Source: Amphiura filiformis
Taxonomy: Eukaryota; Echinodermata; Ophiuroidea; Amphilepidida; Amphiuridae
Length of the DNA stretch: 64,000 nt
Direction of reading: 5' to 3'
Assembly (NCBI RefSeq): GCF_039555335.1
Contig: NC_092641.1
Coordinates: 30,130,848-30,194,847, forward strand
Shown: positions 7,079-34,144 of the stretch, in pieces
Numbering within the stretch: the stretch's first letter is position 1
Layout: each line of letters starts with the position of its first letter
Position numbers and translations under genes: made by a program
The notes under the pieces: generated by a model
The model's database searches: none
What the model was told of the DNA's origin: nothing
The model's input: only the letters and a program-made list of their open reading frames with translations

Positions 7079-7120
7079 TAGTAATTTCCTGCATAGCTGA
7101 GTCTGAGGAAATACGATCAT

Positions 7121-7305
7121 ATCAATACCGCCCAAGCTCTGCGGTGACGAGCTGTTGATAATTTCATAACGTTGGCCAGATTTTTTGCTGCGAACGAACC
7201 ACACACAGTGGCTGCGAACTGGACAATCTTCCTGCCAATATCACTCTTTTTAAGATTCATGAGATTGATGGTGCTTGGTAAAATTATCTGCTACAAATAA
7301 CTAAG
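7121..7305 (+). other. Candidate 5' non-coding exon of zinc-finger gene A
   Basis: This block is alignable with 26310-26491, which lies at the matching place upstream of gene B. Shared text includes ATACCGCCC, AGCTCTGCG, GACGAGCTGTTGATAA, GAACTGGACAAT and CAAATGGTA. Both copies end at a donor-like site (here AAG|GTAAAT at 7305/7306; B AAG|GTAATT). Both carry a short upstream frame at the same place: 7259-7300 reads MRLMVLGKIICYK-stop, and B reads MRLVVLSKIVC-stop. Nothing else outside the coding exons is conserved so well between the duplicates. A spliced leader exon is the simplest explanation; a conserved promoter or enhancer is the alternative. No transcript evidence is available. Confidence 0.5.
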
Positions 7306-7561
7306 GTAAATTTAAATAAACCTAAAGCCAAATTTATACAAATGGTACTATTCTGCTGGAAATCCTGGGCATGATCATGACTCGAGTGATGAGATGATGA
7401 AATAATTTAAAGGAGTATTTCGTGATCCTAGCATCCTCTTTTTATGACATTTTTCAGTACATATCCACGAAAAAAGCCTATTCCCAAAATTTCAGGTTAT
7501 TCCGATTTTGCGTTTGCAAGTTATGCATGATTATGTGTATTACACTGCTCCATAGACAATG

Positions 7562-8802
7562 TAGGTAACCCATACCCAGGCAAACCTTAGTTAACACATT
7601 TGCTAGTCAGCCAAATTCGCCGACAATGTCAATGCATATTTACATAGAAATTTAAAACAACTGGCCGAAGAAGAAAACGTACATAAATATGTTTTCTATA
7701 CTTCACTTGACCCAAATATATGATTTTTTATGGTGATAAGTCACTCGCACATGGAATTTTAGAGGGATTTGGAACAAGCGAATCAAGCCTGCCGATACGT
7801 CTATTGTTATTATAACACTTCTCATGAATATTAATAACAATGACCTGGCTTTTCTCACCACAACATCACTTTGCACTTGAGAGAGTTGAATGGTTATTGA
7901 CTAACACTCACATACACTCACCCCACACACTGTGATCAAGTAACAAGTTACTACTGAAGTTTGAAATAAAATGAAATAGTAAAATAAAAGTTTGAAAAAG
8001 AATATTGAAATAATTTTAAAAGTAAACTAAATTGAAAAAATAGAATAGAATAAAAGGAATAAAACTAAACAAAACTAAACTAAAGAATATAATAAAATAA
8101 ACTGCAATATAATAAATAAACATTAAATAAATAAATAAATAAATAATATTAACCAACATGATTTCACTTGAGCCTTGGCCTATGATTTTTTTTAAATAAA
8201 TAAATAAAATAAATAAATAAAACATTAAAATAAAAAATAAATAAACGAGTTATATAAATAGGCCTAGTATAAAGAAATAAAAATAAACATTACAATTGAT
8301 AATAAGTATAAAATAAATAATAAATGCAAAAAATGTCTAAATTTATTAAATTGAATTAATAAATACAAAATATCTTAATTTTATTTATAATGTGTGCCGT
8401 GTGTGAGAGCATGCTGCCCATACGTCATCGACATGCAGAAAACATAATTCAATCGATTGCTAACAGGAAGTGAGTGTGTTGCATTAATATTCATGAGTAG
8501 TATTATAATAACAGTAGACGTATCGGCAGGCTTGATTCGCTTGTGATTTGGATAGCAGTTCCATTTAAAAAAGCTGCTATCATAATGAGATTAAGATCTA
8601 GAAACACCCCCGAAATGCCGTTTTGGGGAATTTTGCTAGCTGAAACTTTTTGATGAAAGTCAATCTTTGACAAGATGTAACTTTGCTACGGAAAGTGCTA
8701 TGAAAAAATGGTTTTCAGTTTTGGCTTTGTTTACTCAAGGGCTTTGATTTGATATATAAAATGATGCAGTTTGATGGCAAATTTGAATTCACCTAGTATA
8801 CC
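7562..8802. mobile_element. Insertion within MITE M, 9-bp TSD
   Basis: The 9-mer TAGACAATG is present once in the two uninterrupted M copies but twice here, at 7553-7561 and 8803-8811, exactly bracketing 1241 bp of unrelated sequence. The inserted piece has no obvious long terminal inverted repeat. Nine-base duplications are typical of Mutator-like elements, but that assignment is only a suggestion. It contains a further inserted element, 7774-8544, leaving about 460 bp of its own sequence. Confidence 0.75.
7774..8544. mobile_element. Innermost nested element, ~60-bp TIRs, 8-bp TSD
   Basis: Left end ACAAGCGAATCAAGCCTGCC is matched by its exact complement at the right end, and similarity continues for about 60 bp to CTCATGAATATTAAT. 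GATTTGGA is duplicated at 7766-7773 and 8545-8552. The 771-bp interior is A/T-rich with AAATAAATAAAT runs and encodes nothing. An 8-bp duplication fits a hAT-type mechanism. Confidence 0.8.
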
Positions 8803-9138
8803 TAGACAATGCGTTGTAATTTCGTTCTGGTGCACCAGAACGAAATTCAAATTTCACGATATCTTTGCAAAACTAATTAATCTGCAAGAAATATTTTGTA
8901 CATAAACATTATGTAGCCAGAGGTTTCCAGTGATATAAAAATCTCAACTTTTTTTTGAGAAAAGTGGGGGATGAGGCTGTGGATCATGAAATGCCCCTTT
9001 TAATGTATACGTAAAACTAAAAGTGCCGTACTATTAATATTACGCTGACTTTCGTATTCGGCGAGGAGGACGATTTCGACCTCCTGGTTTGTTTACAAAC
9101 AGAGAGGTAGACAAAAGACCGTTCCGCTTGTCCAAACC

Positions 9139-9590
9139 AGTGGCGTAACTAGGGTTGGTAGCGCCCGGGGCAAGAAACAAAATTGGCGCCCCTCACCCCC
9201 GCCCCCGAGGTGGCGGGGGGGAGGGGCTTGGGAAAAATAAGAAGCTTATGTTACAAATGCGTGCGAAGCGCGTGGAAAATTTTGCCATATTTGAAGCTAA
9301 ATTGTTGAAATAGGATAATGCAAAAGTGGAATAATTTCGTCGGGCTTGGAAAAAAATAAGAAGTTTATGTTACAAATGCGCGCAAAGCACGTGGAAAATT
9401 TTGCCATTGTTGAAATAGGATAATGCAAAAGTGGAATAATTTCGTGCGTAGCGCGAAAAATGTGCAATTTTGTGGCTAAAATAGCCAAATATGAGGTTAA
9501 GTGAGGCCGATTTGGCGCCCCCCCTAGTGGTAGCGCCCGGTGGTAGTGCCCTCCCCTTCCCCCTCCCCCCCATTTGCCATCAACATTTCA
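9139..9590. repeat. CAGTGGCGTAACTAGGG-type dispersed repeat with internal duplication
   Basis: The left edge CAGTGGCGTAACTAGGG resembles hAT ends seen elsewhere in the window. Inside, a segment of roughly 100 bp (AAGTTTATGTTACAAATGCG, GTGGAAAATTTTGCCAT, GGATAATGCAAAAGTGGAAT) occurs twice, at about 9240-9335 and 9355-9445. C-rich runs follow. No right terminus or target duplication could be fixed. Confidence 0.5.
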
Positions 9591-9869
9591 TATGGAAACA
9601 GTTCAGACCCAGAACAGGATCATGTCAGAAATTAATATTTTGTTCTGGGTCTGATTATTCGGACTAACTTTATACATGTATGACATAACATTTTTATTTT
9701 AATGATTATCATCCCCGGGCATATGATATAGGCCTAGTCTAGATGCTAGTCTAGACTAGCTGCCAGTGCTATTCCTGCTCTTTATCAGTGACTAACCAAA
9801 TAACATCAAATCGGGGCTCGTGCATTAGACGCGTCAACATCAGCTATCATTACACGTACAGCCATATTC

Positions 9870-10068
9870 TCTAGTAAAAGTGGCACAATTGTGATTTTAC
9901 CCCTTCGTTGTTAACTAATCATATCTCGAGATTTAAAAAAGCAAATTGAAAAGAACAAACTTATTTGAGAGCTAAGACTATGCCCTTGACGTTATGTCAC
10001 AACGGTATTTTCTAGTTGCTAAAGAGGGCGCTTTTCACTTGCATAATTGTTTTTGAGACAGGCTGTAT
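9870..10068. mobile_element. Relative of the TA element at 34342-36716 (uninterrupted copy)
   Basis: The sequence shares AGTGGCACAATTGTGATTTT, CTCGAGATT, GTCACAACGGTATTTTCTA and the terminal TTTTTGAGACAGGCTGTA with 34342-36716. It carries the undisturbed junction TTGAGAGCTAAGAC, which in the other copy is split by a 1357-bp insertion. The left end differs or is lost. It lies in intron 1 of gene A. Confidence 0.65.
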
Positions 10069-10809
10069 ATTGATCAAATTTCCCAATCATAGTGCATAAA
10101 AATTGTAGGAATGCCTTTAAGCCTCCTCTGGCCACCACCTGGGCATCCAGCATTTTATAACATGTAATTTTCCAACCGTGCAACACAGCAATGATGGGCA
10201 ATTGGCAATGATGTATTAAATAGGGTTGTTGTCAAGTAGAATTTTCAAGGTCCGATGTTGGCAAGTTGTCGACAGAGCAATACATCAATCAAGTCCAAAT
10301 ATTAAGTTCAGAGATCACATTATGCGTTGTTTATATTTCATAATATAATCATCGGTAACTCGCCATTACAAAATGAAGTCTATTGATCCACCCTATCATT
10401 GTAATGTTACCGTACTCATTACTCAATTATTACTTTCTTTTTATATATACCTTGAAGTTATTTCATGGTCAATAATTGTAATCTTAAGCTTATCTCTAAT
10501 ATTTTTAATGACTAGTCTTTGTCGATAATTAGCCCATGCTTGCTGACAATCGGGAAAACTGGGAAAATTGCTTTGTCGACAATATTGTCGACAACAGCCT
10601 TGTCGACAACAACCCTAGTATTAAACAAAAGGATAGTGGGAAATAAATACTGGCCTAGGCTACAGCAGTGGTCCCAGCGGTCAGGAATGTTATAAGACTC
10701 TCAGCTACAAGTTGGGACCATAATCACATTATCCTTTTTCACATCCATATATGCCTTTTAAATGGTGACTCTTTTAACCATGTTTAATTTATTGTTATAA
10801 TACATACAG
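10069..10809 (+). other. Intron 1 sequence of gene A, no recognised feature
   Basis: No coding frame, clear repeat or conserved block relative to gene B was seen. The final bases ATACATACAG form the acceptor for the next exon. The spacing of this exon to the 5' block is 3.5 kb, compared with 4.0 kb in gene B. Confidence 0.5.
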
Positions 10810-10820
10810 ATTCACATAAC

Positions 10821-10970
10821 ATGGATTTTGTTGGTAATAACTGGCAGGAACGACCACCTCCTGTTGATGTGAGAACACCATATACATGTAGCACAGTAAA
10901 CTGGCCGTCAACAAGTTGGGGCTGCGATGCTGAAACACAGACCTTATCACATCATGAACTTGTCAGTGAG
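10821..10970 (+). CDS. Zinc-finger gene A, first coding exon
   Basis: The exon probably spans 10810-10970: acceptor CAG|ATTCAC and donor GAG|GTATGT. Translation begins at ATG 10821 (AACATGG, good context) and gives 50 codons starting MDFVGNNWQERPPPVDVRTP and containing NWPSTSWGCDAETQTLSHHE before LVSE. Gene B has an exon with the same splice sites, the same phase-0 end and about 75 percent identical residues (MDFVGSNWQEQPAPVDVREP). Conservation of frame across mostly conservative changes shows it is coding. The peptide has no recognised domain; it forms the N-terminus that joins ALKAMITDRL in the next exon. An upstream start in the 5' block is possible but both copies have stops there. Confidence 0.75.
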
Positions 10971-11525
10971 GTATGTATGGGTACAGGGTGAATCTGGGAT
11001 GCAGATTCGCAGACATTGCCACTTCATGCTCTATTGCTCTTGCCAGGGAGGGATTGGGTAGACACGGTGGGTCTGAGACACATACATTGCCACTTCATGA
11101 CCTTGTTAGGGAGGTACATATGCACTGGCGTGTCCAGGATCTTTTCCTGCGGGGGGCTCAGCCCCTCTTTCAGATTTATGCGGGGGGCTTAATGGCTAAA
11201 ATCGCCAAAAACCGGCTGATTTTACATGATTTTTAACAAAGTGCGGGGGGCTTCAGCACCCAAAGCCCCCCCTGGACACGCCACTGATATGTATGGATAC
11301 AGGGTGAATCTGAGATGCTGAGTCGCAGACATTGCCACTTCATGCTCTTGCCATGGAGGTATTGGGTAGACAGGGTGGGTCTGAGACACATACATTGCCA
11401 CTTCATGACCTTGTTAGGGAGGTATGTATGGATACAGGGTGAATCTGAGATGCTGAGTCACAGGCAGTGCCACTTCATGCTCTTGCCAGGGAGGTATTTG
11501 GTAGACAGGGTGGGTCTGAGACGCG
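10971..11525 (+). repeat. Intronic array derived from the exon end and 5' splice site
   Basis: Five degenerate units of about 65-70 bp follow the donor directly. Each contains text like ACATTGCCACTTCATG, CTCTTGCCAGGGAG and GTATGTATGGATACAGGG, matching the exon end (CACATCATGAACTTGTCAG, TGAG|GTATGTATGG). Each therefore carries a donor-like GGGAG|GTAT. Gene B has only one such extra unit (30633-30710). Unit 2 is broken by a 164-bp MITE. Use of any extra donor adds an early stop (GTA TGT ATG GGT ACA GGG TGA). Confidence 0.7.
11123..11286. mobile_element. Short MITE with CACTGGCGTGTCC ends
   Basis: Ends are CACTGGCGTGTCCAGG and its near complement CCTGGACACGCCACTG. ATATG is repeated on both sides (11118-11122, 11287-11291). 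Poly-G tracts (GCGGGGGGCT) sit just inside both ends. The neighbouring uninterrupted unit at about 11401-11445 shows the site without it. Confidence 0.7.
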
Positions 11526-11759
11526 AAGGCCTGCTAGATTCGCGTCGCATCACTTGCAATGGTGAGTTCGATAAAGAATGAGAACCACTCGGTATACGCA
11601 CACATTTGTTCAGCAATTTGATATAACACAATCAAATAAATCAAACATGAACAAAGACAAACACAACTAGAAACCACAGTTGTGTTTGACCAAACACGAA
11701 TATCTATGCCCGTGACCACACCCAACGCCCCCTTCCCCTATTCACAAAACGAAAACTTA

Positions 11760-12055
11760 TACCCCTTGGTATAAGCTTTAAATGATATAAGTATCATTAT
11801 CATAGCACCTAAAATAAAAAAAAACGCCCAATTGGGCGCCAAATGCAAAAAATTAGTGACCATCATGTGAAAGCCCTTGTTATAAACTTTATTTGATATA
11901 AGTATCATCCTCATAGCACCTAAAATAAAAAAGCGCCCAATTGGGCGCCAAATCCAAAGGCCCTTTTATAAGCTTTAATTGATATAAGTATCATCCTCAT
12001 AGCACTTAAAATAAAAAAGCGCCCAATTGGGCGCCAAATCTAAAAAAACGGGTGA
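11760..12055. repeat. ~100-bp units with GCGCCCAATTGGGCGC palindrome
   Basis: Three units carry AAACTTTAATTGATATAAGT then CATCCTCATAGCACCTAAAA and the perfect 16-bp palindrome GCGCCCAATTGGGCGC. Three more units with the same text are at 13020-13350 in the next higher-order unit; one there has lost a G from the palindrome. Confidence 0.8.
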
Positions 12056-12309
12056 CCACCCCCTTGGTCACCCCCTTACAAACCGTGACAACCCTTAACC
12101 CTCCTAACACCCATTAACCAACCATACGCCATGTCCCACAATGACAGCCTTTTGAGGTGGTCCAAGGCACCAATATCAAAATGCTTACACATTCCCTTTT
12201 AAGGGAATTTTTGTCAAGTGATCAATTTCCATGACGTACGATTCGGGCCGTTACCATTGCAAACACATGTAGCTAACAAAACGCTACCTATTGCGCTACA
12301 CTGTGTTAA

Positions 12310-12890
12310 TATTTTGTACCTAGTTTGCTTTTAAAGCCTTTGAACTTTGAAATCTGGGGTTGCGGCTACCACAGAATACATCTGGGGTCATGGGCCATCA
12401 TTGTACCAAGTATGAACCCTGAGGGCGCTGTAGTTCTTGAACTAGAGCTATTTGAAATTTTACACATATTGCTCCCTGTAGCCCATGACCTTTGACCTCT
12501 GGGGTCGATGTTAATTCAGGAAATATCTAAGGGTCATGGGCCATCATTGTACCAAGCATGAAACCTGAGGCGCTTATAGTTCTTTAGCTAAAGCGGTTTT
12601 AAGTTTTACATATATTGCCCCCTGTAGCCTGTGACCTTTGACCTCTGGGGTCGAGGCTACCATAAGTTACTTCTAGGATCATGGGCCATCATTAAACTAA
12701 GTATGAACCCTGAGGGCGCTATAATTCTTGAGCTAGAGCTGTTTGAAATTTTACACATATTGCCCCCTGTAGCCCATGACCTTTGACCTCTGGGGTCGGG
12801 AGTACCCTAGGATGATGCTAGGGGTCATGGGTCATAACTATACTAAGTTTGGGCCCCGAGGCTACTGTGGTTCTTGAGCTAGAGGAGTGC
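12310..12890. repeat. ~150-bp units carrying TGACCTTTGACCT (set 1)
   Basis: Units share GGTCATGGGCCATCATTGTA, CCAAGTATGAACCCTGAGGG, CGCTGTAGTTCTTGAGCTAG and CCCATGACCTTTGACCTCTG. Perfect direct-repeat-1 motifs are at 12486, 12632 and 12777. Parallel sets are at 13620-14190 (13785, 13931, 14077), 15560-15860 (15730) and 16640-17220 (16810, 16967, 17103). Confidence 0.85.
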
Positions 12891-14344
12891 AAAAAGTGGT
12901 CTTAAGAAGAAGAAGGAGAAGGAGGAGAAGGAAAACTAGAAACCACTTGTGTTTGAGCAAACACGAATATCTATGCCCGTGACCCCACCCCTTAACCAAG
13001 CACTCCCAATTCAAAAGTTACTGACCAACATGTGAAAGCCCTTGTTATAAACTTTAATTGATATAAGTATCAATCATCCTCATAGCACCTAAAAAAAAAA
13101 AAGCGCCCAATTGGGCGCCAAATCAAAAGTTGGTGACCACCATGTGAAAGCCCTTGTTATAAACTTTAATTGATATAAGTATTATCCCCATTGCACCTTA
13201 AATATAAAAGCGCCCAATTGGCGCCAAATCAAAAGTTGGTGACCATTATATGGAAGTCCTTTTTATAAGCTTTAATTGATATAAGAATCATCCTCATAGC
13301 ACTTAAAATATTTAAAAAGCGCCCAATTGGGCGCCAAATCTAAAAAACTGGTGACCACCCCTTGGTCACCCCCTTACAAACCGTGACAACCCTTAACCCT
13401 CCTAACACCCATTAACCAACCATACTCCATGTCCCACAATGACAGCCTTTTGAGGTGGTCCAAGGCACCAATATAAAAATTCCTACACATTCCCTTTTAA
13501 GGATATTTTTGTTAAGTGATCAATTTCCTTGACGTACGATTCGGGCCGTTATCATTGCAAACACAGGTAGCTAACAAAACGCTACCTATTGCGTTACACT
13601 GTGTTAATAGGTTGTACCTAGTTTGCTTTTTAAAGCCTTTGAACTTTGACCTCTGGAGTTGTGGCTACCATAGAATACATCTAGGGTCATGGGCCATCAT
13701 TGTACCAAGTATGAACCCTGAGGGCGCTGTAGTTCTTGAGCTAGAGCTGTTTGAAATTTTACACATATTGCTCCCTGTAGCCCATGACCTTTGACCTCTG
13801 GGGTCGATGTTAATTCAGGAAATATCTAAGGGTCATGGGCCATCATTGTACCAAGCATGAACCCTGAGGGTGCTATAGTTCTTTAGCTAAAGCGGTTTTA
13901 AAAATTACACATATTGCTCCCTGTAGCCTGTGACCTTTGACCTCTGGGGTCGTGGCTACCATAAGTTACTTCTAGAGGTCATGGGCCATCATTATACTAA
14001 GTATGAACCCTGAGGGCGCTGTAGTTCTTGAGCTAGAGCTGTTTGAAATTTTACACATATTGCCCCCTGTAGCCCATGACCTTTGACCTCTGGGGTCGAG
14101 GTACTCTAGGATGATGCTAAGGGCCATGGGCCATCAGTATACCAAGTTTGGGCCCAGAGGCTGCTTTGGTTCTTGAGCTAGAGGGGTGCAAAAGTGATCT
14201 TGAGAAGAAGAAGAAGAAGAAGAAGAAGGAGAAGGAGAAGACTAAACAGAACAAAGACAATATCTATGCCACCGTTCCACGGGCATAGATAACTAGAAAC
14301 CACAGTTGTGTTTGACCAAACACGAATATCTATGCCCGTGGCCC

Positions 14345-18475: not shown

Positions 18476-20845
18476 GCACTCAAAGCCATGATAACAGACC
18501 GTCTGAGGAGTAAAGGCCTCCCTCTGATAGCCTGCGCTCATACAAGAGGATTTCAGCTTCAGAACATCATCAATGGCATAGTTGAGAGTCATAGGGTTAC
18601 ATGCAAACAACCCAATCAGGTTCAACACCAAGGGAATACCTCACTACATGAAGTTGACGATGATGAAAATGAGGTCCAGGAAGCATCTCGGTTGATAGAA
18701 GAATTGAGTAGTGCTTTAAGCCAACCAATGCAGCAACATTCTGGGTCTGGCAAGGCAACAACTACAGGTATTCGACAACTGAGGAAGAGACACATGGGTA
18801 ATACAGAGTCTGGTGCACCACTTGAGCGTAAAAAAGCAAAGAGAGCACCAAAAGGGACAGTATACCCGTGTGCAAAATGCAGCACGACGTTTAGTATGCA
18901 AAAAGATTTGATTAAGCACTACAATACCGTGCATTCGTTATGTAGGCCCTTTAAATGCGACAAGTGTGAATTGTGGTTTAAAACTAATAGCGAACGAACT
19001 AAGCACATCAAGGCAGTGCATCTAAATTTACACAAGTTTTATTGTTCTATTTGTAACAGGGGATGTAGTTCACAGAACAAGTTAATTGAACATGAGAACA
19101 TTCATTTAAAAGACAAAGATAGGCCTATAAAATGCAAGTATTGCAATAAGGGTTTTCCATCCACAAAAGACTTGAAAGTTCATGTTAGAACTCATGAAGT
19201 AGAGACAAAAGTCCAGTGTGAGCTGTGCACAGCAAGGTTTGTGTCATTCAACCACAGCTACAAATGTCACATGAAACTCGTACACAAAGCACACGTTAGG
19301 TATGAGAGTAATAAATGTTTACTCTGTGACAAAGAATTTGGAGAATTTAAACAGCGCCCTCTTCTAATGGAACACATGAAGGAAAACCATAGCGACATGG
19401 GATTTGCTTGCAAAGAGTGCGGAAGGAAATGTGATACCGCAGCTAAGTTGGCAACTCATGAGCAAAGTGTACACAGGAGGGTACCCGTATCTGCCTATAA
19501 CCCAAAGAAGGTGGATGTTGGGGTTGGTGATGTATCACGAGAGTTATTGATGTGCAAATTATGTGGGGGAATGTTTGCACTTCGAACCGCTCTAGATCAA
19601 CATTTGCCAATTCATTTCAACAATGAGGATGCCCTTTCGAAAAAAGAGCTAGCAGAAATTGTCGACATGCAGGTGGAAGCTTCTATTACCAGCTACCAGC
19701 TATCGAAAATTGCCACAAGTTTGATTGAAAAAATAGATTCACATTCACATGTCAGAAAATCTTCCAAAAAGAAAAAAAGGAAGAGGTTGAATGCTCCAAA
19801 GAAGTCACCAGTTGCTCTAAAGGTTAAACATCAACAGAAAGGAAGGGACAAAAGTTGCCAATCACAGACACCAGTATTGAAAAATAGAAGAGAACCAGAC
19901 AAGAGCATTGTTCAAAGTACAACTGCTGTGAGCAGTCCGAATGACAACAGTGTTAGTGATCAATCTGGAAAAACTGAACCAGGAAACGAAGATAATATGC
20001 GAGAGGGTGTAATTTGTAGTGCAACTTTATCAAGTCAGTCAAAGAAAGGTGAAGTTGAGAGCAAACAGTTGAGTAAAAAGAGTCTCCAACCTGAAATATG
20101 CACAACAGTAAACAGTAATACTACTGGTCGAAAGTATTTATCAGCTCCCGGTCACCCGACTTTAATTGTTGATCAAAGTGCAAGCCAGTCAGCTGAAGGT
20201 AGCAATCAAGACGTAGAAAGTCACCAAACTGAAGTAACTAAACCGAGAAACAGAAACACTGTGGAAGATGGAATGAAGAGAAGTCAGCGTATCGTACTGA
20301 AATCAGAAAGCAAAAATGATGCTGAAATGATGGTAGAGAGGAGTACTACCACAGTAGGTGAATCAAAAGAGAACCAACATGATAGCAGCAAAACAGATGG
20401 GCAACTGGTAAACGCAGCAAAAGTTTGCAGCAAACCACAGCTCCAGATACGCTTACCGCCTGGTGTAATATCGGGAGGTAAAGCACCAAATCCGGACCAA
20501 GTTAGGGAGATGATTCGGACAGGAAAAATGACAATATCCATGAAAGTTCCTGTGACAAAGTTGACACCGACATCTTCATCTATTCAACAGAGTACAAGTA
20601 AAACACTGGTTTTAATGGACAGTACATCTACTCCAGGGATCATAAATAAAACTCTTGCCTTAGATGAGCCTTTTCCGGTTAGTTTGCATGTGGCAAACGA
20701 TGAGAACGCTTCATCTAAATCTGATGCCGAGGCTGCATCCTCAGCTGAGTCTGATACCAAGGCTTCATCCTCATCTGAGTATGATACCGTGGCTGCATCC
20801 TCATCTACGTCTGATGCCAAGGTTGAATCCTCCTCCAATGTCTGA
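18476..20845 (+). CDS. Zinc-finger gene A, main exon (eight C2H2 fingers)
   Basis: The acceptor TATATTTTCAG|GCACTC at 18475/18476 is identical to that of gene B and keeps phase 0 from the previous exon. The open frame upstream of the acceptor is intron. The predicted protein (about 839 residues with the first exon) has a conserved ALKAMITDRLRSKGLPLIAC segment, a basic ERKKAKRAPK possible nuclear signal near residue 170, then eight C2H2 fingers between about 180 and 430, e.g. CAKC...HYNTVH, CDKC...HIKAVH, CELC...HMKLVH and CKLC...HLPIH. A basic KKKKRKR near 481, a long polar tail, and a conserved PQLQIRLPPGVISGGK/MTISMKVPVTKL motif follow. Nuclear nucleic-acid binding is the family expectation; no orthologue name can be given. 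The tail enters a 10-residue repeat, where a +1 insertion near 20836 brings the stop at 20843. Confidence 0.85.
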   Translation, partial: ALKAMITDRLRSKGLPLIACAHTRGFQLQNIINGIVESHRVTCKQPNQVQHQGNTSLHEVDDDENEVQEASRLIEELSSALSQPMQQHSGSGKATTTGIRQLRKRHMGNTESGAPLERKKAKRAPKGTVYPCAKCSTTFSMQKDLIKHYNTVHSLCRPFKCDKCELWFKTNSERTKHIKAVHLNLHKFYCSICNRGCSSQNKLIEHENIHLKDKDRPIKCKYCNKGFPSTKDLKVHVRTHEVETKVQCELCTARFVSFNHSYKCHMKLVHKAHVRYESNKCLLCDKEFGEFKQRPLLMEHMKENHSDMGFACKECGRKCDTAAKLATHEQSVHRRVPVSAYNPKKVDVGVGDVSRELLMCKLCGGMFALRTALDQHLPIHFNNEDALSKKELAEIVDMQVEASITSYQLSKIATSLIEKIDSHSHVRKSSKKKKRKRLNAPKKSPVALKVKHQQKGRDKSCQSQTPVLKNRREPDKSIVQSTTAVSSPNDNSVSDQSGKTEPGNEDNMREGVICSATLSSQSKKGEVESKQLSKKSLQPEICTTVNSNTTGRKYLSAPGHPTLIVDQSASQSAEGSNQDVESHQTEVTKPRNRNTVEDGMKRSQRIVLKSESKNDAEMMVERSTTTVGESKENQHDSSKTDGQLVNAAKVCSKPQLQIRLPPGVISGGKAPNPDQVREMIRTGKMTISMKVPVTKLTPTSSSIQQSTSKTLVLMDSTSTPGIINKTLALDEPFPVSLHVANDENASSKSDAEAASSAESDTKASSSSEYDTVAASSSTSDAKVESSSNV

Positions 20846-21405
20846 TGCCAAGGCTGCATCCTCATCAAAGTCTGATACCAAGGCTACATCCTCATCTAAA
20901 TCTGATACCAAGGCTTCATCCTCATCAAAGTCTTAAACCAAGGCTGCATCCTTATCTAAGTCTGATACCAAGGCTGCATCTGAGTCTGATACCAAGGCTT
21001 CATCCTCATCTAAGTCTGATATCAAGGCTGCATCCTCATCTAAGTCTGATACCAAGGCTGCATCCTCATCTAAGTCTGATACCAAGGCTTCATCCTCATC
21101 TAAGTCTGATACCAAGGCTGCATCATCATCTAAGTCTGATACCAAGGCTGCATCCTAATCTAAGTCTGATACCAAGGCTGCATCGTCATCTAAGTCTGAT
21201 ACCAAGGCTTCATCCTCATCTAAGTCTGATACCAAGGCTGCATCCTCATCTGAATCTGACACCAAGGCTGCATCCTCATCTAAGTCTGATACCAAGGCTG
21301 CATCCTCATCTAAGTCTGATACCAAGGCTGCATCCTCATCTAAGTCTGATTCCAAGGCTGCATCCTCATCTAAGTCTGATACCAAGGCTGCATCCTCATC
21401 TTAGT
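20715..21405 (+). repeat. 30-bp coding repeat (SKSDTKAASS), array 1
   Basis: About 23 copies of TCTGATACCAAGGCTGCATC plus CTCATCTAAG encode SKSDTKAASS. The first four or so are in frame with gene A. A one-base insertion (TCCTCCAATG for TCCTCATCTAAG, near 20836) shifts the frame. In the restored frame stops occur at 20935 (TAA), about 21157 (TAA) and about 21402 (TAG). Gene B has just one unit (IKSDTKATFSS), so the array grew in A. Confidence 0.95.
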
Positions 21406-21487
21406 CTAAACCAAAACTTCAATCACCTGTAGACATCAAAACAAGAGAATAAGAGAAAACAGTGGAACAAGAGAAAGCAACCAAGGC

Positions 21488-21940
21488 AACCAAGGCTGCA
21501 TCCTCATCTAAGTCTGATACCAAGGCTTCATCCTCATCAAAGTCTGATACCAAGGCTGCATCCTCATCTAAGTCTGATACCAAGGCTGCATCCTCATCTA
21601 AGTCTGATACCAAGGCTGCATCCTCATCTAAGTCTGATACCAAGGCTGCATCCTCATCTAAGTCTGATACCAAGATGCAGCTACATCCTCATCAAAGTCT
21701 GATACCAAGGCTGCATCATCATCTAAGTCTGATACCAAGGCTGCATCCTCATCTAAGTCTGATACCAAGGCTGCATCCTCATCTGAGTCTGATACCAAGG
21801 CTACATCCTCATCTAAGTCTGATACCAAGGCTTCATTCTCATCTGATACCAAGGTTGTATCATCATCTTAGTCAGATACCAAGGCTGTCTCCTCATATAT
21901 CTAAGTCTGATACCAAAGCTGCATTCCCATCTAAGTCTGA
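21488..21940 (+). repeat. 30-bp coding repeat, array 2
   Basis: About 15 further units follow a 70-bp spacer (21415-21484, AACTTCAATCACCTGTAGAC to GAACAAGAGAAAGCAACC). The same spacer recurs after array 2 at 22027-22093. The array plus its 3' flank was therefore duplicated as a block. One unit near 21675 is altered (CCAAGATGCAGCTACATCC), changing frame again. Confidence 0.9.
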
Positions 21941-21941
21941 A

Positions 21942-22064
21942 ACCAAGGCTGCATTCGCGTTTGTATTTGACAGCTCACAACACCCATCACACACTGCATC
22001 ATCATATGCATCCATTTTGAACCCAAAACTTCAATCACCTGTAGACATCAAAACAAGAGAATAA
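21942..22064 (+). pseudogene. Detached C-terminal tail of gene A
   Basis: The frame reads AAFAFVFDSSQHPSHTASSY, then ASILNPKLQSPVDIKTRE and a stop. Gene B's tail has the homologous STQNLSHTTASTASIMSTPK and VQSPTLKQEN. In A this tail is separated from the gene by several stops and frame changes in the repeat arrays. It is probably no longer translated unless splicing removes the arrays. Confidence 0.6.
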
Positions 22065-26059: not shown

Positions 26060-26280
26060 CAACTAGTATTCTCCTCCGCCGTCAGTGTGATTCCAGTCAC
26101 TCCACCGTCTCCACGTACCGTGTTGCGAAGGTGGAGGAGTCTAAAGCTGTATTGACGAACACGCATGCGTTAAAAATATGTAGCCTAGGTCGACCAATAG
26201 CGTGACGTAGTTTCCGGCATTGTTCCTATGCACTTTCACCCTCCCGAGAGCACTTCCAAAATGCCTCCAATAGCACCTGA
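26060..26280 (+). promoter_or_regulatory. Possible promoter region of gene B
   Basis: This GC-richer stretch lies just upstream of the conserved 5' block of gene B. It contains an inverted-CCAAT/CCAAT (GACCAATAG), a CRE half site GTGACGTAG, ETS-type TTTCCGGC and GAGCACTTCC, and a short ATG frame (MPPIAPER-stop at 26261). The matching place in A has been overrun by the 6774-7078 MITE. Promoter identity is inferred from position and motifs alone. Confidence 0.3.
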
Positions 26281-26309
26281 AAGATGATTGCTATCTACTA
26301 CAGAATAAT

Positions 26310-26491
26310 TGAGTATACCGCCCAGCTCTGCGATGACGAGCTGTTGATAACTTCATAACATCGGTCAGGTTTTTTTGATGAGAACTGGACAATTTTCCTG
26401 CGAAATATCACCCTCTCCTGCCAAATATCAACCCCGTGCATGCCATGAGGTTGGTGGTGCTCAGTAAAATAGTCTGCTAGAAATATTAAAG
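26310..26491 (+). other. Candidate 5' non-coding exon of zinc-finger gene B
   Basis: This is the counterpart of 7121-7305. It shares GACGAGCTGTTGATAA, GAACTGGACAAT, a short frame at 26445-26480 (MRLVVLSKIVC-stop) and a donor-like TTAAAG|GTAATT. Between the short frames of the two copies three changes are synonymous and the amino-acid changes are mostly conservative. Sequence 3' of the donor stays similar for about 60 bp (CAAATGGTA, TTCTGCTGG), so the block might also be a regulatory element spanning the donor. Confidence 0.5.
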
Positions 26492-26853
26492 GTAATTTTA
26501 TTTAATAAACCAAAAGCGTAAAACAAATGGTAAGCTTACTAAATTCTGCTGGTAAATCGACAATGAATCTTCGGTTTTATTTAGTTTTACTGGTTAACGT
26601 CCATATATGTTCGGAAGAGACGGATACATTCAATGTAACATTGCATGAGAGCCTGCCAATTTTTAAAACTTTCCTATAATATCAATTGCACATAACATAC
26701 GAAGTCACAAACTTCAATATGCACTTCAAATACAGCAGACCAGCTGTTAATTATTACCGATCCTGTAGAATAACTTACATAATCGTCCATTTCATGGAAT
26801 CCCGTTGCTCAGAATTGCCTATTTCATTTTTATCTGTCAAATGCGCTGTGGAT

Positions 26854-27656
26854 CAGGGTTCACAGTTTGCTCTCAAATAACCGGGTCCACTTTTTTATGC
26901 TGGACCCATTCAGATCCCATTTAGTTGAAATTTGCGGGTCCCAAATCGATTCTTGTGGGTCCAAATGTACGAAACTTCAGAAACACCCGAAATGTATTTT
27001 CAGTACTGGCTAAACGATAAATATTAAAGTATGCGAATTCGCACCCAAAACCTACCAAAGTCTAGTCAAATTACTGGGTAAAAGACGACTTGCCGCGATC
27101 GGCCGACTTTCTCATAAAGAACTACAATTACTACCTAATAACATGCTCTACTTTAATCATCTAATTATTTGGTTATTTTGTAATATTTACTCGGTTAAAA
27201 TACAACTACCGCAAAAACGTGTTTTCGCGATATGTCTCCAGGAATTGACCGTGTTTTGTTGACATATTTACATTATTGTAACATAATATTTGCACGGTCC
27301 GAAAAAAATCGCAAGTCAACCTCTTCCACAGTTCCCCTCGTATCGCTGATCAAATATCTGTGCATGAAATAGCGATGAGGTGTGTATCATGTTGCAGCGA
27401 TTTTTATATAATTGTATGTAATTTATGAATGAAAAGGCGGGATGAAAAGTTGTTTAAAAATGTGCTGTGCGCCGATTGAGCTGGGTTATCGCGCAATGAC
27501 GATCTATGATGATATTTTCTATTTCTTGGATGGGATTTTTTCCGGGTCCAAACACAGACTGCTGGACCCATTCAGGTTACATAATCTTACTTTTTCCGGG
27601 TCCAGTGAGTTCAAAAAGCGTCCTGGACGCGAAAACGCGATAAACTGTGAACCCTG
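26854..27656. mobile_element. hAT-type element, 8-bp TSD CTGTGGAT
   Basis: Ends CAGGGTTCACAGTTT and AAACTGTGAACCCTG are exact complements. CTGTGGAT flanks both sides (26846-26853, 27657-27664). Inside, CCGGGTCCA and CTGGACCCATTCAG recur near both ends in related contexts. The 803-bp interior has no transposase. It lies in the intron region upstream of gene B's first coding exon. Confidence 0.9.
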
Positions 27657-27664
27657 CTGTGGAT

Positions 27665-28567
27665 GTGCTCCAAAATCACAGGTGTGAAACTGATTTTATA
27701 CCACTCGCTTGCTTTCGCAGAAAAGCCAGCCTTGTGGCACTTGGGCATGATGTCTGTCATGGACGTATGCAAAATTTCCGACGGGCGTCATATAACCCGT
27801 ATTGTGATTGGTTGCAAAAGCCATTTTTTGAAATCGTAAGCCAATCAATGAACGCGACGGCATTTTACGGTATTAATTAATGTGACTCGCCAGTAAAGTA
27901 CGTCTAACCTGATTGGTTTACAAAACTACTTTGATAATTGCTAAGCCAGTCAGTGTGCTCGATGCAACAACCTTGTAGAGGTTTTCGAGCTCTAGGCGAA
28001 TTCACGTGGTGATCCAGCGATCGAGTATAAATTCAGCTTGACAACTGCTCTCGCGCAAGATCGCAGGTGCAATAACAATACATGGACACAATCACTGACA
28101 TTTACACAATGGAATAATGAATTATTTATGACATGCATCGGCTGGATTTTACGATCGAGGTAAGGTTTTTGGCCTGTCCCTGCGTGAATATCCTTAGTTT
28201 TCAGCATCAAAGATACTTGCGATGACCAGTTCGAAGTACGAAGGTCTGAGACTCCTGAGCATAGCTGGTCCAGGGTACACATAAAATACCACTTTTTCTC
28301 ATAAATACCACTTCCTACCATTCCTCACATGACATGACACATTGTAACAATAAAGTCCTTTTTTAGCCGGATAATGGGCAAAAAATTGTGTAAAATACCA
28401 TTTTTTTTCGCGCTACGCGCGCACATCATCCCAATAAAACCCTTTTCGGGAAGCTCGATGCCCGGGCTCGATGCAACTGCAATTTTTTTTCGTCTGTGCC
28501 CCCAAAATTTTATTTTGCCCCCCTGACCAAGAAAGCTGGCTACGCCCCTGATTTTACTAGATTCTAA
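27665..28567 (+). other. Intron 1 of gene B, one truncated repeat end
   Basis: No coding frame is convincing. From about 28355 to 28550 there is a repeat with GCGCTACGCGCGCAC and a right end CAAGAAAGCTGGCTACGCCC, the complement of a hAT-like CAGGGGCGTAGCCAG end also seen at 44540. Its left end was not found. Confidence 0.4.
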
Positions 28568-28926
28568 CAGCCCTCGAATTAAGGATCTGAAGGGACACAG
28601 CAACTTTTTTAGGGCAAGTTGAAAATTGCCTTGAATTTTCACTGAAAAGGCAAGGCATCACCGCAGTTTGTAATATTTCAAGAGGACATCATGGCAACTA
28701 TTGAAAATTTGAGAAGGGCACCAAGGCAATTTCTCAAGAAAACACACACAAACATAGATGGATGATCTTATAATGAAGGGACAGGGCTGGGGCACCGCGG
28801 CAACTTCATTAGAGGGCAATGCAAGTGACTGCCTTGGGTAAAGGACATATTTTGAGGGCATTACGGTAGTGGCGATGGGCACCCACGGCAAAATGCCATG
28901 GGTGCCGTGGGTTAATTCAAGGGCTG
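28568..28926. mobile_element. hAT-type MITE, 8-bp TSD GATTCTAA
   Basis: Ends CAGCCCTCGAATTAA and TTAATTCAAGGGCTG are inverted copies with one change. GATTCTAA is repeated exactly at 28560-28567 and 28927-28934. The 359-bp interior repeats AGGGCA-type words. It has no coding content. Confidence 0.88.
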
Positions 28927-29000
28927 GATTCTAATTAATGTAAATCCCGGAGTCACTTGCACAGTTAAAAAGGTTCTATAATTTGAGAACAAGTCCTTAA

Positions 29001-29671
29001 GGGCTGTGGTAGGGCCTATGAACGTTTGGACAGTATTTATTGTGGTACATTAGAGCACATTAGACATATCGAATTGCATTCTGAATACGAAGAATGTCAT
29101 TCTGATATCAAATAATTTGGATTTTTGACATTCGCAATTTAATACACATTTTATGGCAAATCATTAAAATTGATATTTTGATATTTAACAGCACGTGAAG
29201 TAAACTTTATAAATCTGATGATTTATACTTAAAAAGTGTATGTAGGTGGGATGAAAAGCCGGCGATCAATTGAAAATTTGACCTTTCGTATTGAAGATAT
29301 GGATTTTTTTCCCCAAAACACAAAAAAAAATTTGGTCTTTTGGGGAAAAAATCCATATCTTCAATATGAAAGGTCAAAATTTTCAATTGACCGTCGGCTT
29401 TTTCCCTCCTGCTACATACACTTTAAGAATATGTCATTAGATTTATATAATTTACTTTACAAGGACTGTTATATATCTAAAATTTGAAAAATGTCCAATT
29501 TTATAATTTGTCATAAAATTTGTATTATATTGTGATTTTCAAAAATGAAAATTATTTGATATCAGAAAGACATGCTTCAGTATTCAGAATGCAATTCGAT
29601 AGGTCTGAGGTGCTCTCATGTCCCACAAAAATACTGTCGAAAAACGTTAATAAACGCTCATTTTAGATCCC
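29001..29671. mobile_element. Palindromic TTAA element (family P), copy 1
   Basis: TTAA flanks both ends (28997-29000, 29672-29675). The ends are GGGCTGTGG... and ...GATCCC. The whole element folds on itself around 29310: GATATGGATTTTTTTCCCC pairs with GGGGAAAAAATCCATATC, then GGTCAAAATTTTCAATTGA and GCACATTAGACATATCGAAT match in the arms. Other copies: 40887-41548, 62147-62757, 62983-63629; fragments: 50560-50960, 55090-55345, 55490-55760 and 63640-64000. Confidence 0.85.
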
Positions 29672-29845
29672 TTAAATGTTCGAAATTCTACAACTGGGGC
29701 CATATAATGTAGGCTCGCCCATGTGTGTACTTAGCATGCTAGCATGATTCATGTGATTGAGAGGCCTAAAATCATTTTGCATAATCTTCTTCCCTACGAT
29801 TTCCACTGAATATCCCCAGGGGGGCCACTCAAGTATGATAGTTTA

Positions 29846-30164
29846 TGCATGCGTGACCAAACTTTTTTTAAACACCCCCTAAACGATTTTTACCCTACCA
29901 GCAAATTTAGGCCCTTAATTAGGTAATTTAAATAAAATTTACCCCCTAATGAGTTTTTTGGCTGGTAGAAATGAAAAAATGTACCCTTTTTGGACTCATA
30001 ATTAACAAAAATTTAAAAAGGTACCCTAAACAAGTTTAAAGTTTCAGAAAACTACCCTTATTTTTGAAAATCACTGTTTTTTAAACCCTAAATGAGTCAC
30101 TTGTGTAACTTACCTTGCCTAAAAAAACACAACTTTTTACTTGTGTTTTTTTGGTCACGCATGC
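29846..30164. mobile_element. Possible MITE with GCATGCGTGACCAAA ends
   Basis: GCATGCGTGACCAAA at about 29847-29861 is complemented by TTTGGTCACGCATGC at about 30150-30164. The interior is A-rich with TACCCTAAA and ACCCCCTAA words. No target duplication was identified. It abuts another MITE. Confidence 0.5.
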
Positions 30165-30167
30165 CTA

Positions 30168-30324
30168 CAGTTAGTCTACTCTGAAGTACAAAGTACCGAC
30201 GCGGACGCACACATTGTGCCGACTTTGAAGGTAGGCATACCTGCAGAAGAGATGCAACACTGCGCACTGTTTACGCGATGTATACGAGCGCGTTGTCACT
30301 TTGTACTTCAGAGTGGACAAACTG
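30168..30324. mobile_element. TA-flanked MITE just upstream of gene B's first coding exon
   Basis: TIRs of about 40 bp share CTCTGAAGTACAAAGT; ends read CAGTTAGTC and GACAAACTG. TA flanks both sides (30166-30167, 30325-30326). It is 157 bp and lies 150 bp before the acceptor. Confidence 0.75.
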
Positions 30325-30488
30325 TACAGACCATTTATGTGAGTGGTCCCCGGAGCAAATATTTCTCTGCCAATGAACTCTCACTTTTACTAGACCAAAA
30401 TCATATCCTTAACACAACTTTTAAGTGTTGACACTTTCCATGTTTAATTTGCTTGGAATTGCTTATGCATACAGATTCACATGCCGGC

Positions 30489-30632
30489 ATGGATTTTGTT
30501 GGTAGTAACTGGCAAGAACAGCCTGCTCCTGTTGATGTGAGAGAACCATACAGCACTTTTAGCTGGCCGTCTACAAGTTGGGGCTGCAATGCTGAGACAC
30601 AGACTTTATCACTTCATGACCTTGTCAGTGAG
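30489..30632 (+). CDS. Zinc-finger gene B, first coding exon
   Basis: The exon spans 30475-30632, acceptor TACAG|ATTCAC and donor GAG|GTATGT. From ATG 30489 (GGCATGG) it encodes 48 codons, MDFVGSNWQEQPAPVDVREP through FSWPSTSWGCNAETQTLSLH to LVSE. It ends in phase 0 like gene A and is two codons shorter. An extra out-of-frame ATG at 30481, absent in A, precedes the start and could lower initiation. The peptide matches no domain I know. Its preservation in both copies argues for function at the protein N-terminus. Confidence 0.75.
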
Positions 30633-30919
30633 GTATGTACATGGGTATACAGGGTGGGTCTGAGATGCTGCGTCGCAGACATTGCCACTTCTTGATCTTG
30701 TCAAGGAGGTGTTACTTCTATAAGTTCCCTCTGACAAATGTTTTATAAATCAATACAGTTTCAGCTGCTTTTAAAAATTAAAACAACATTTATTTATATA
30801 TTTATCTGTTCGTTATTTATTCAGGAAAATTCCGTCAATACTGGAAGCCCTGATAACATACATACGAGGGGGTATCAAAAAGTTCTAAGCCTCCCCTAGA
30901 AGGCATAGCAGCATCTCCA

Positions 30920-31540
30920 AATTTACATTGTAATTAAAAAGTATAACATTTTGTGTGTCTTCATTATTAAAATGGTGTAAATCCATTGATGCTATTTTAA
31001 GTTACAAGTAGTTGAATAAAATTTGACCATGTTTTAAAAGTTGCAGTAAGCGCTCTTTTTAATTAAGCCGTAAATGTATCCATCTGTCACCTGTTTGAAT
31101 AAATCAATAACTTTGCTGTTGATTTTCAAAATTAGAACACCTAGTTGTAGAACCAAGGGCGTACATGTAGCTAGCTTTCTTGGTCAGGGTAGGGGGGTGG
31201 GAAAAGACATATTTTTGTTCAACTGCTCTAACCATGGGAAAGCATCAATTTGATTTGCACATTTTTAACACTGAAGATGCACAACATGGTTTTCTACAAC
31301 TATATTTTTAAATGTTAAAAATCCACTGGAAAAATTTTGATTTATTATTCATTTCATACAGAAACCACAGATGAATGAGCTATAAAGGATGGTTTGACTG
31401 CAACTTTTAAAACATGATCATCTTTTGTTCAATTGGTTGTTCCTTGGTTGTTCCTTGTGATAGCATCAATGGATTCACACAATTTAACACTAATCAATGA
31501 TGATGCCCAACATGCCATTCTACAATTACTTGAATTTAAC
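30920..31540. repeat. Foldback repeat in intron 2 of gene B
   Basis: Left text TCCATTGATGCTAT and CATGTTTTAAAAGTTGCAGT is complemented at 31395-31500 (ACTGCAACTTTTAAAACATG, GATAGCATCAATGGA). A further related copy (GGAAAGCATCAATTTGATTT) lies between. A mariner-like end, ACGAGGGGGTATCAAAAAGT, at 30866-30885 precedes it without a right partner. The intron is only 1.1 kb. Confidence 0.6.
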
Positions 31541-31741
31541 AAATCTGTGTAGCATATATTGATTTATTAAACATTCATCAGGGAACTTAAAACTTGTGTT
31601 AACTATATAATTAATATAAAAGAAAACAATTAGTTCTTCTTTCAGTATACATATACGGTATTAAAAATTCAATTCTATCATAGCTTAGCCATAATTTAAG
31701 TTTATTAAATGATTATTGGCATTTTTGTATTATATTTTCAG

Positions 31742-33787
31742 GCACTCAAAGCCATGATAACCGACCGTCTGAGGAGTAAAGGCCTCCCTCTGATAGCCTG
31801 CGCTCATACAAGAGGATTTCAGCTTGAGAACATCATCAATGGCATAGTTGAGAGTCATAGAGTTACATGCAAACAATCCAAACAGGTTCAACACCAAGGG
31901 AATACCTCACTACATGAAGTTGACAATGATGAAAATGAGGTCCAGGAAGCATCTCGGTTGATAGAAGAATTGAGTAGTGCTTTAACTCAATCAATACAGC
32001 AACATTCTGGGTCTGACAAGGCAAAAGCTACTGGTATTCGACAACAGAGGAAGAGACACATGGGAGATACAGAGTCTGGTGCATCTCCTGAGCACAAAAA
32101 GGCGAAGAGGGCACCGAAAGGGACAGTATATCCGTGTGCAAAATGCAACACAACTTTTAGCATGCAAAAAGATCTGATTAAGCACTACAATATTGTGCAT
32201 TCACTAACTAGGCCCTTTAAATGTGATCAGTGTGAATCATGGTTTAAAGTTAACAGCGATCGCACTAAGCACTTCAAGGCAGTGCACTTAAATGAATACA
32301 ACTTTTATTGTTCTATTTGTAACAGGGGAACGCATACAAAGAAAAAGTTAATTGAACATGAAAACACTCATTTAAAAGATGAAGATAAGCCTATAAAATG
32401 CAAGTATTGCAATAAGGGGTTTCCATCGGCCACAAAGGATTTAAAAATTCATGTTAGAACACATGAGGTAGAGACGAAAGTCAAGTGTGAGCTGTGCACT
32501 GCAAGGTTTGTGTCATTCCATGACAGCTACAAAAGTCACATGAAACTCGTACACAAAGCACATGTTAGGTATGAGAGTAATAAATGTTTACTCTGCGACA
32601 AAGAGTTTGGAGAATATAAACAGCGCCCTCTTCTAATGGAACACATGAAGGAAAACCATAGCGACATGGGATTCGCTTGCAAAGAGTGCGGAAGGAAATT
32701 TACTACCGCAGCAAAGTTGGCAACTCATGAGCAAAGTGAACACATGATTGAACAAATAGAGGAAGATGCCACCACCGACGAGGAGAGTACTATAGAGGCT
32801 TCGAAAATTGCCACCAAAAGTTTCGCAGAAGAAATAGATTCACCTTCAAAGAAAGGTGAAGTTGAGAGCAAACAGTTGAGAGAAAAGAGTCTCCAACCTG
32901 AAATATGCACAACAGTAAACAGCAATAACTTTGGGCATACAGCTGGTCGAAAGTATTTATCAGCTCCCGGTCACCCGAAAGTTGAAAGGGCAAGTAGACC
33001 AATTGAAGGTAGCAATCAAGTTAAGAGCAAACATGCAGTAGAAAGTCACCAAACTAAAGTAACTGAACCGAGAAACAGAAACACTGTGGAAGATGGGATG
33101 AAGAAGAGACGGTGCATAGTACTCAGATCAGAAGGCAAAAATGATGATGACAAGATGGTAAGGAGGAGTACTACCACAGCAAAAAAATCACAAGAGAACC
33201 AACATGATAGCAACAAAATCTCAGGGCAACTGGAAAACGCAGGAAAAGTTTGCAGCAAACCACAGCTCCAGATATGCTTACCGCCCGGTGCAATTTCGGG
33301 AGGTAAAGTAAGAAATTTTGCACCCAATCCGGACCAAGTTAAGGAGATGATTCGGACAGGAAAAATTACAATATCCATGAAAGTTCCTGTGACAACGTTG
33401 GGAACACCAGCATCTGGGCAGACACCATCATCTGCATCTCTTCAACAGAATACCGGTAAAACACTGGTTCTAGTGGACAGTGCGTTTACTCCAGATTCGT
33501 CTGGACCAAGAGTGGATGCTAGAGCTACCAGCGGATCAAATTCAGATAGAAAACAATTATCTTCATCAAAAGGAGATACCCATAAAGCTTTTCCTATAGG
33601 TGACAAAAATGACACTTCTCCTCCCTCTAGTGTGCATGCCTTAAAGGATGACAAAGCTATAAAGTCTGATACCAAGGCTACATTCTCATCTATGCTTGAT
33701 ATTATGGGGAAAACGTCAAATGTGCAGCATAAAGTCGGCACTACAAAGGCGGGCAGTGTTGCTGAGTTAAAAAAAAAAAAAAAATAA
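31742..33787 (+). CDS. Zinc-finger gene B, main exon (seven C2H2 fingers)
   Basis: The acceptor TTTTCAG|GCACTC and phase match gene A. With the first exon the protein is about 729 residues. The ALKAMITDRLRSKGLPLIAC segment is unchanged. Seven fingers follow from about residue 180, e.g. CAKC...HYNIVH, CDQC...HFKAVH, CELC...HMKLVH and CKEC...HEQSEH. The eighth finger of A and roughly 110 residues of polar linker are absent: EHMIEQIEEDATTDEESTIE joins directly to text matching A after KIDS. The conserved PQLQICLPPGAISGGK/ITISMKVPVTTL motif is present, with five extra residues (VRNFA). Nuclear nucleic-acid binding is expected. The frame ends at TAA 33785-33787, directly after a 16-A run (LKKKKK-stop). 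Confidence 0.85.
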   Translation, partial: ALKAMITDRLRSKGLPLIACAHTRGFQLENIINGIVESHRVTCKQSKQVQHQGNTSLHEVDNDENEVQEASRLIEELSSALTQSIQQHSGSDKAKATGIRQQRKRHMGDTESGASPEHKKAKRAPKGTVYPCAKCNTTFSMQKDLIKHYNIVHSLTRPFKCDQCESWFKVNSDRTKHFKAVHLNEYNFYCSICNRGTHTKKKLIEHENTHLKDEDKPIKCKYCNKGFPSATKDLKIHVRTHEVETKVKCELCTARFVSFHDSYKSHMKLVHKAHVRYESNKCLLCDKEFGEYKQRPLLMEHMKENHSDMGFACKECGRKFTTAAKLATHEQSEHMIEQIEEDATTDEESTIEASKIATKSFAEEIDSPSKKGEVESKQLREKSLQPEICTTVNSNNFGHTAGRKYLSAPGHPKVERASRPIEGSNQVKSKHAVESHQTKVTEPRNRNTVEDGMKKRRCIVLRSEGKNDDDKMVRRSTTTAKKSQENQHDSNKISGQLENAGKVCSKPQLQICLPPGAISGGKVRNFAPNPDQVKEMIRTGKITISMKVPVTTLGTPASGQTPSSASLQQNTGKTLVLVDSAFTPDSSGPRVDARATSGSNSDRKQLSSSKGDTHKAFPIGDKNDTSPPSSVHALKDDKAIKSDTKATFSSMLDIMGKTSNVQHKVGTTKAGSVAELKKKKK

Positions 33788-34144
33788 ATCTCAGTGAATA
33801 ATTCAGGAACTTATTTCCCAAAACCTATGCCTGCTTCTACGAATTCAAATGTCGTTCTTGTGGACAATGTCTCTAATCCATCCACAAGTTTACTAAGATT
33901 ACAAAATGATACTACAGGATCTTCCTCTTCCAGTACACAAAATCTGTCACATACAACAGCATCAACTGCATCCATCATGTCCACCCCAAAAGTTCAATCA
34001 CCTACATTAAAACAAGAGAATGTCAGTGAGCCACATAAGATCAGCCCGCGAAGACCAATCATCTTATTGAGACAAACAGGTTCCCCAGTGAAACCAGCAT
34101 TAAAGCCTGGCACCAATGTGGGTAAACAATCTACATCACAATGA
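33788..34144 (+). pseudogene. Open C-terminal extension of gene B beyond an in-frame TAA
   Basis: After the TAA the same reading frame stays open for 118 codons (ISVNNSGTYFPKPMPASTNS to PALKPGTNVGKQSTSQ-stop). The part STQNLSHTTASTASIMSTPK/VQSPTLKQE is homologous to gene A's detached tail. The frame is kept, so a single AAA-to-TAA change, or an indel of a multiple of three in the A run, separates it from the main ORF. Alternatives are stop readthrough, polymorphism or an assembly error in the homopolymer. I mark it as a probable lost or conditionally read tail. Confidence 0.6.

Follow-up and report, generated by a model that had tools for sequence, protein, structure and literature searches.

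A probable tandem duplication of a multi-exon C2H2 zinc-finger gene in the brittle star Amphiura filiformis

Introduction

Arrays of C2H2 zinc fingers bind nucleic acids, mostly DNA, in a sequence-specific manner. The present work deals with a window of 64,000 nucleotides, the whole stretch of DNA that was analysed (Amphiura filiformis, contig NC_092641.1, positions 30,130,848 to 30,194,847 of the forward strand), which contains two copies, A and B, of a multi-exon gene encoding a C2H2 zinc-finger (ZNF) protein. In the FiNZ-ZNF genes of cyprinid fish and in the KRAB-ZNF genes of tetrapods, the N-terminal domain is encoded by one exon and the fingers by the next (PMC10547256). FiNZ is a sequence of 28 residues with a cyprinid host. 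The ZAD-ZNF genes of insects constitute another class with an accessory domain (PMC7655104). Conflict with transposons has been argued to drive the diversification of animal ZNF genes, with a sea urchin among the species considered (PMC10547256). On the evidence of the sequence, we consider it very likely that A and B are paralogous C2H2 zinc-finger genes in tandem arrangement, with the same exon layout and phase. The pair is best read as a tandem duplication of the kind usual for ZNF genes, although a few of its details are odd.

Results

Self-comparison of the window revealed three blocks that recur in the same order and on the same strand. The same three blocks were recovered when positions 4000-24000 were compared more sensitively with positions 24001-36500. 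The first pair of blocks (7125-7364/26315-26558) shows 72.5% identity and the pair around exon 2 (10755-11032/30418-30698) shows 80%. The finger exon is covered by the pair 18446-19478/31712-32747 with 90.5% identity and by a further pair, 20039-20636/32846-33494, with 79.8% identity. The B region reversed without complementing served as a control and gave 0 plus-strand hits at the same E-value. Beyond these, the sensitive comparison matched a 30-bp array of copy A to one place in B, and it picked up a repeat derived from the end of exon 2 as well as a few small tail pieces in colinear order. One short match (9906-9973/35195-35261) breaks the order, and two minus-strand matches (8896-9003 and 9856-9914) have the appearance of dispersed repeats. 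No third copy was found within the window by tblastn.

Each copy consists of an apparent exon of the 5′ untranslated region (5′UTR), an exon coding for the N-terminus and a single large exon for the fingers, all on the plus strand. The probable 5′UTR exon of A is located at 7125..7305 and ends with the donor AAG/GTAAAT; its match in B is located at 26315..26491. Since stops close the main frame ahead of the ATG in A as well as in B, the first block, if it is an exon at all, can only be 5′UTR. It ends in both copies with a similar short upstream open reading frame (ORF), found at 7259 in A (13 codons) and at 26445 in B (11 codons). Exon 2 (10810..10970 in A and 30475..30632 in B) differs between the copies by one 6-nt indel; it is coding from the ATG at 10821 in A (50 codons, including the motif ETQTLS) and from the ATG at 30489 in B (48 codons). 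Exon 3 of A (18476..20845) encodes a segment with the sequence ALKAMITDRL, eight C2H2 fingers, a lysine-rich block and a tail rich in serine and threonine (S/T-rich), and ends with TGA. Exon 3 of B (31742..33787) encodes the same segment, seven C2H2 fingers and an S/T-rich tail with a tract of 16 A, and ends with TAA at 33785-33787. When joined, the coding exons give 839 codons in A (ATG 10821 to TGA 20845) and 729 codons in B (ATG 30489 to TAA 33787). The donors of exon 2 are GTATGT at 10971 (A) and 30633 (B), AG acceptors stand directly before 18476 and 31742, and the junction of exons 2 and 3 is in phase 0 in both copies. Each copy would be transcribed from its own 5′ exon. In B, an out-of-frame ATG at 30481, 8 nt before the start and absent in A, opens an ORF of 19 codons overlapping the main reading frame.

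The blocks, their order, strand and boundaries agree with the preliminary description of this locus, as do the matching splice sites and phases. In that description the region extended to 34144. This position is the end of a TGA that closes a stretch of 118 codons, open in the same frame, beyond the stop of B at 33785-33787.

Exon 2 encodes 50 residues in A and 48 in B with the pattern MDFVG..WQE..WPSTSWGC.AETQTLS..LVSE. Exon 3 starts with ALKAMITDRLRSKGLPLIACAHTRGFQL.NIINGIVESHRVTCKQ, and 44 of its first 45 residues are identical between the copies. The N-terminal exon and the ALKAMITDRLRSKGLPLIAC segment, both noted earlier, are present in A as well as in B. The opening of exon 3 is followed by an acidic stretch, a basic stretch and then the fingers, of which a pattern search found eight in A and seven in B, in keeping with the seven to eight first reported. 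Fingers 1, 2, 3, 4 and 7 of A are canonically spaced. The loops are longer in fingers 5 and 6, and finger 8 occurs in A only. The latter belongs, together with the lysine-rich stretch, to internal coding sequence specific to A, for which B shows one gap of 162 nt and one of 294 nt. Modelling of the first 408 residues of exon 3 of A with AlphaFold2 on a two-sequence alignment gave a mean predicted local distance difference test score (pLDDT) of 41.9, which is too low to use; helices of low confidence were placed before the fingers at 2-12, 28-44 and 64-82.

The helix contacts were compared at four positions in each of the five canonical fingers. They are the same in A and B in 15 of 20 cases, and the changes lie in fingers 2, 3 and 4, which suggests that the two proteins would most likely recognise overlapping but non-identical sites, A with one finger more. 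The contact positions show no significant enrichment for change (5 of 20 vs 12 of 88, p 0.30), in a count that left out fingers 5 and 6 with their non-canonical loops and finger 8, which is absent from B. Positive selection on the DNA contacts is unsupported by these figures.

Both copies contain C2H2 fingers according to Pfam, with PF00096 and PF13894 above the cut-off, and all Pfam models that reach it are of the C2H2 type. No KRAB, zf-AD, BTB or SCAN match was found in Pfam scans of exon 2 of both copies and the pre-finger part of A at E up to 10, or of exon 3 of both copies at E up to 1, scans in which the HMMER filters may hide weak matches. The cut-off was not reached by any Pfam model in exon 2, in the pre-finger part, the block after finger 7 and the tail of A, or in the stretch of B after its stop. 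DUF7066, DUF7128 and others remained below it, and the match of the pre-finger part of A to ISG65-75 (E 0.056, below the cut-off) is regarded as chance. Among the best 60 of 136 matches of A in the PDB, the best are DNA-binding finger arrays, with ZNF568 and CTCF first, and no PDB sequence matched the pre-finger segment of A. The architecture, earlier called unrecognised, is therefore so in a weak sense only, namely that it has no accepted Pfam accessory domain and no PDB match before the fingers. A search of viral contigs with the pre-finger and finger 1-7 region of A (335 amino acids) gave 5 pattern stretches, and a search of prokaryotic genome contigs with the A/B alignment gave 288; 0 were confirmed in either case. 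Because these collections are viral and prokaryotic, the absence of relatives says little about animals.

All 11 coding indels up to positions 20636/33494, beyond which the sequence aligns poorly and was excluded from the count, are multiples of three (one in exon 2 and ten in exon 3, the 162- and 294-nt gaps among them). In three noncoding stretches, this applies to 4 of 9 gaps. Substitutions at codon positions 1/2/3 amount to 4/5/10 in exon 2, 20/14/33 in the fingers and 24/22/26 in the tail. Over 657 codons, the synonymous divergence (dS) is 0.313 and the nonsynonymous divergence (dN) is 0.140, as estimated by the Nei-Gojobori method with a codon bootstrap. The ratio dN/dS (omega) is 0.21 in fingers 1-7 (bootstrap 0.12-0.36), 0.285 in exon 2 (0.09-0.78) and 0.38 in the pre-finger part (0.18-0.85). 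Synonymous divergence is 0.067 in the first 45 codons of exon 3, 0.138 before the fingers and 0.346 in the fingers. In simulations with one copy unconstrained since the duplication, the mean finger omega was 0.42-0.49, and values as low as the observed one occurred in 0.2%, 0.3%, 0.1% and 0% of the runs with a partner omega of 0, 0.05, 0.1 and 0.2, respectively (up to 1000 runs, in which the branches were equal, a single transition bias applied and dS averaged 0.38, slightly above the observed 0.346). Since simulations with one neutral copy rarely reach 0.21, the finger arrays of both copies have probably been under purifying selection for most of the time since the duplication.

A dN/dS near 1 over the fingers, which the preliminary description had named as a sign of duplicated pseudogenes, was not observed. 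The tandem duplication of a multi-exon C2H2 gene proposed there is well supported by the colinear blocks, the splice sites, dN/dS and the indels. Its conserved coding frames are found in the N-terminal and finger regions, where they are intact in both copies, but not in the tails, which are broken. Judged by these data, the copies would count as tandem functional paralogues over the N-terminal and finger regions and not over the tails. A false duplication, in which haplotype (allelic) copies were wrongly joined in tandem by the assembler, would likewise give the same-strand tandem order. We regard it as exceedingly improbable: ordinary allelic differences fall far short of an overall synonymous divergence of 0.31, of coding lengths that differ by 162 and 294 nt, and of intron interiors that are unalignable.

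The 3′ end of the coding frame of A runs into a 30-bp minisatellite of about 42 copies (20711..21954, plus strand), the units of which read like SSKSDTKAA. Directly before 20845, the coding frame is lost through a length change; the frame of the array itself continues beyond this point with several stops. A single stretch of B (33661..33701) matches the 30-bp unit, so that the array of A probably expanded from a unit once present in A and B alike. In B, the TAA comes directly after the run of 16 A (33769-33784). It is followed by a stretch of 118 codons open in the same frame with a TGA at its end (33788..34144), which is a probable former C-terminus. Given the base composition, the chance of such an open run is about 0.001, and the other two frames contain six stops each. 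A relic of the C-terminal coding tail of A is located at 21976..22062 and is 75.6% similar to positions 33936-34021 of B. The simplest view would be that a longer ancestral tail was lost separately in A and B. Errors introduced by sequencing, at the homopolymer or within the array, may also account for the early tail ends.

The introns, which had been described as not conserved, do align over about 60 nt on either flank of exon 2 (77-81%), and about 30 nt before exon 3 also align; their interiors, however, are unalignable as claimed. The flank identity fits synonymous divergence plus repeat turnover. Intron 2 of A is rich in tandem repeats and starts with copies of the 3′ end of exon 2 together with its donor (11010-11072, 11073-11116, 11318-11380, 11381-11441 and 11453-11515). 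Intron 2 of B carries one such copy (30655-30714). These copies form a minisatellite with a 63-bp unit that has grown out of the exon edge, with five further copies and a fragment in A (10960-11515) and one in B (30570-30714). Because both gene copies have at least one, the repeat probably predates the gene duplication. A longer coding exon 2 through use of the copied donors is unlikely, as the frame beyond the donor of exon 2 runs into a stop at codon 7 (A) or codon 21 (B). A literature search on minisatellites derived from exon ends returned no papers. Inside the exon-edge array of A lies a short element (11123-11286) bounded by terminal inverted repeats of 16 bp. It has ATATG at either flank, in the manner of a target-site duplication. 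Intron 2 of A also contains three segments of about 820-890 bp (12108-12928, 13406-14292 and 16431-17305) that are about 88% alike and built of 146-bp tandem units.

At the left edge of the window (1-816), the tail of a LINE-type reverse transcriptase runs off the sequence (RVT_1, E 2.8e-6, narrowly missing the curated cut-off). This fragment was the only match when ten further ORFs of the 108 listed for the window were searched against Pfam, and scanning the window for tRNAs and Rfam families gave no hits. A repeat of about 660 bp is present at 28997-29675, 40883-41552 and 62992-63629 with 90-92% identity. As its copies also match each other in inverted orientation, it is perhaps palindromic.

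Discussion

We propose that the pair probably encodes sequence-specific DNA-binding regulators. The product would enter the nucleus, to which the lysine-rich block in A may contribute, bind DNA through its finger array and act as a sequence-specific regulator of transcription or chromatin. The N-terminal segment and the S/T-rich tail would make protein contacts. The locus is a clear case of selection holding the fingers of a ZNF pair while the tails degrade, and of a coding minisatellite apparently amplified from a unit that is still single in the other copy.

Several observations weigh against this proposal. The usual aromatic residue is missing in finger 3 of both copies and in finger 7 of A, finger 4 of B has an extra residue, and fingers 5 and 6 have longer loops; because of these atypical fingers, not every finger need contact DNA. 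The model zf-C2H2_jaz, of the double-stranded RNA-binding type, passes the Pfam cut-off in both copies, and RNA binding by the fingers is possible. The uneven synonymous divergence (0.07-0.35) could reflect partial gene conversion, which is not claimed here, the run test being non-significant with p values of 0.068 (fourfold sites), 0.43 (twofold sites) and 0.087 (all sites). Both tails end early relative to each other, the omega of the tail is 0.72 (0.44-1.22), and the out-of-frame ATG at 30481 could lower the translation of B. The tail omega and the upstream ATG would also suit a recently silenced pseudogene in one or both copies, the low dN/dS then stemming from constraint before silencing. 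So would the frame loss and stops in the tail array of A and the in-frame TAA of B followed by 118 open codons. This explanation is improbable, since both copies keep intact frames over the N-terminus and the fingers and one copy being neutral throughout is rejected by the simulation, a test whose reach ends short of very recent silencing. Two probably constrained copies encoding likely DNA-binding regulators are the preferred reading.

A single TQT is present in the ETQTLS of exon 2 in both copies, with D and N at position -4 in the two copies. TQT is the anchor of LC8-binding motifs and is insufficient for binding by itself; D is common at -4 of these motifs, and the preferred residues at +2 are proline, aspartate or glutamate (PMC6607443). 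The leucine found at +2 in A and B is outside the preferred residues given in that source. LC8 binding via TQT is at most a lead. In Drosophila, a silencing complex dimerised by LC8 is known (PMC7861614), and for this reason one could imagine that exon 2 with ETQTLS and the nearly invariant ALKAMITDRLRSKGLPLIAC form an undescribed ZNF-associated N-terminal domain of a lineage-expanded subfamily, which would dimerise through LC8 and silence transposons in parallel to KRAB, ZAD and FiNZ. We find this idea highly doubtful. If the N-terminal segment did define a large family, it would represent another independent ZNF accessory domain. The more general proposal places the pair in a lineage-expanded ZNF family that represses transposons, with the N-terminal segment acting like KRAB or FiNZ, and draws on an exon layout as in FiNZ-ZNF and KRAB-ZNF genes (PMC10547256) and on the repeat-rich window with its LINE-type reverse transcriptase fragment. 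It is nevertheless rather unlikely: only two copies are present in the window, the contacts are not significantly enriched for change, and the fingers are under purifying selection.

As an ordinary tandem duplication, the pair can be compared with three known systems. ASCIZ/ATMIN (ZNF822), an LC8-binding zinc-finger factor, is likewise a C2H2 protein with a TQT anchor, whereas the A and B proteins have a single TQT near the N-terminus with a leucine at +2 (PMC6607443). With KRAB-ZNF and FiNZ-ZNF genes, A and B share an exon that encodes the N-terminus and precedes the finger exon, as well as the occurrence as local tandem copies (PMC10547256). They differ from KRAB-ZNF genes in having no KRAB match, and from both classes in that their most conserved N-terminal segment (ALKAM...) is located on the finger exon itself. 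The pair departs from animal tandem-array C2H2 ZNF genes in the lack of an accepted Pfam accessory domain and in the non-canonical spacing of several fingers, but has in common with them the finger array in one large exon and the local tandem duplication.

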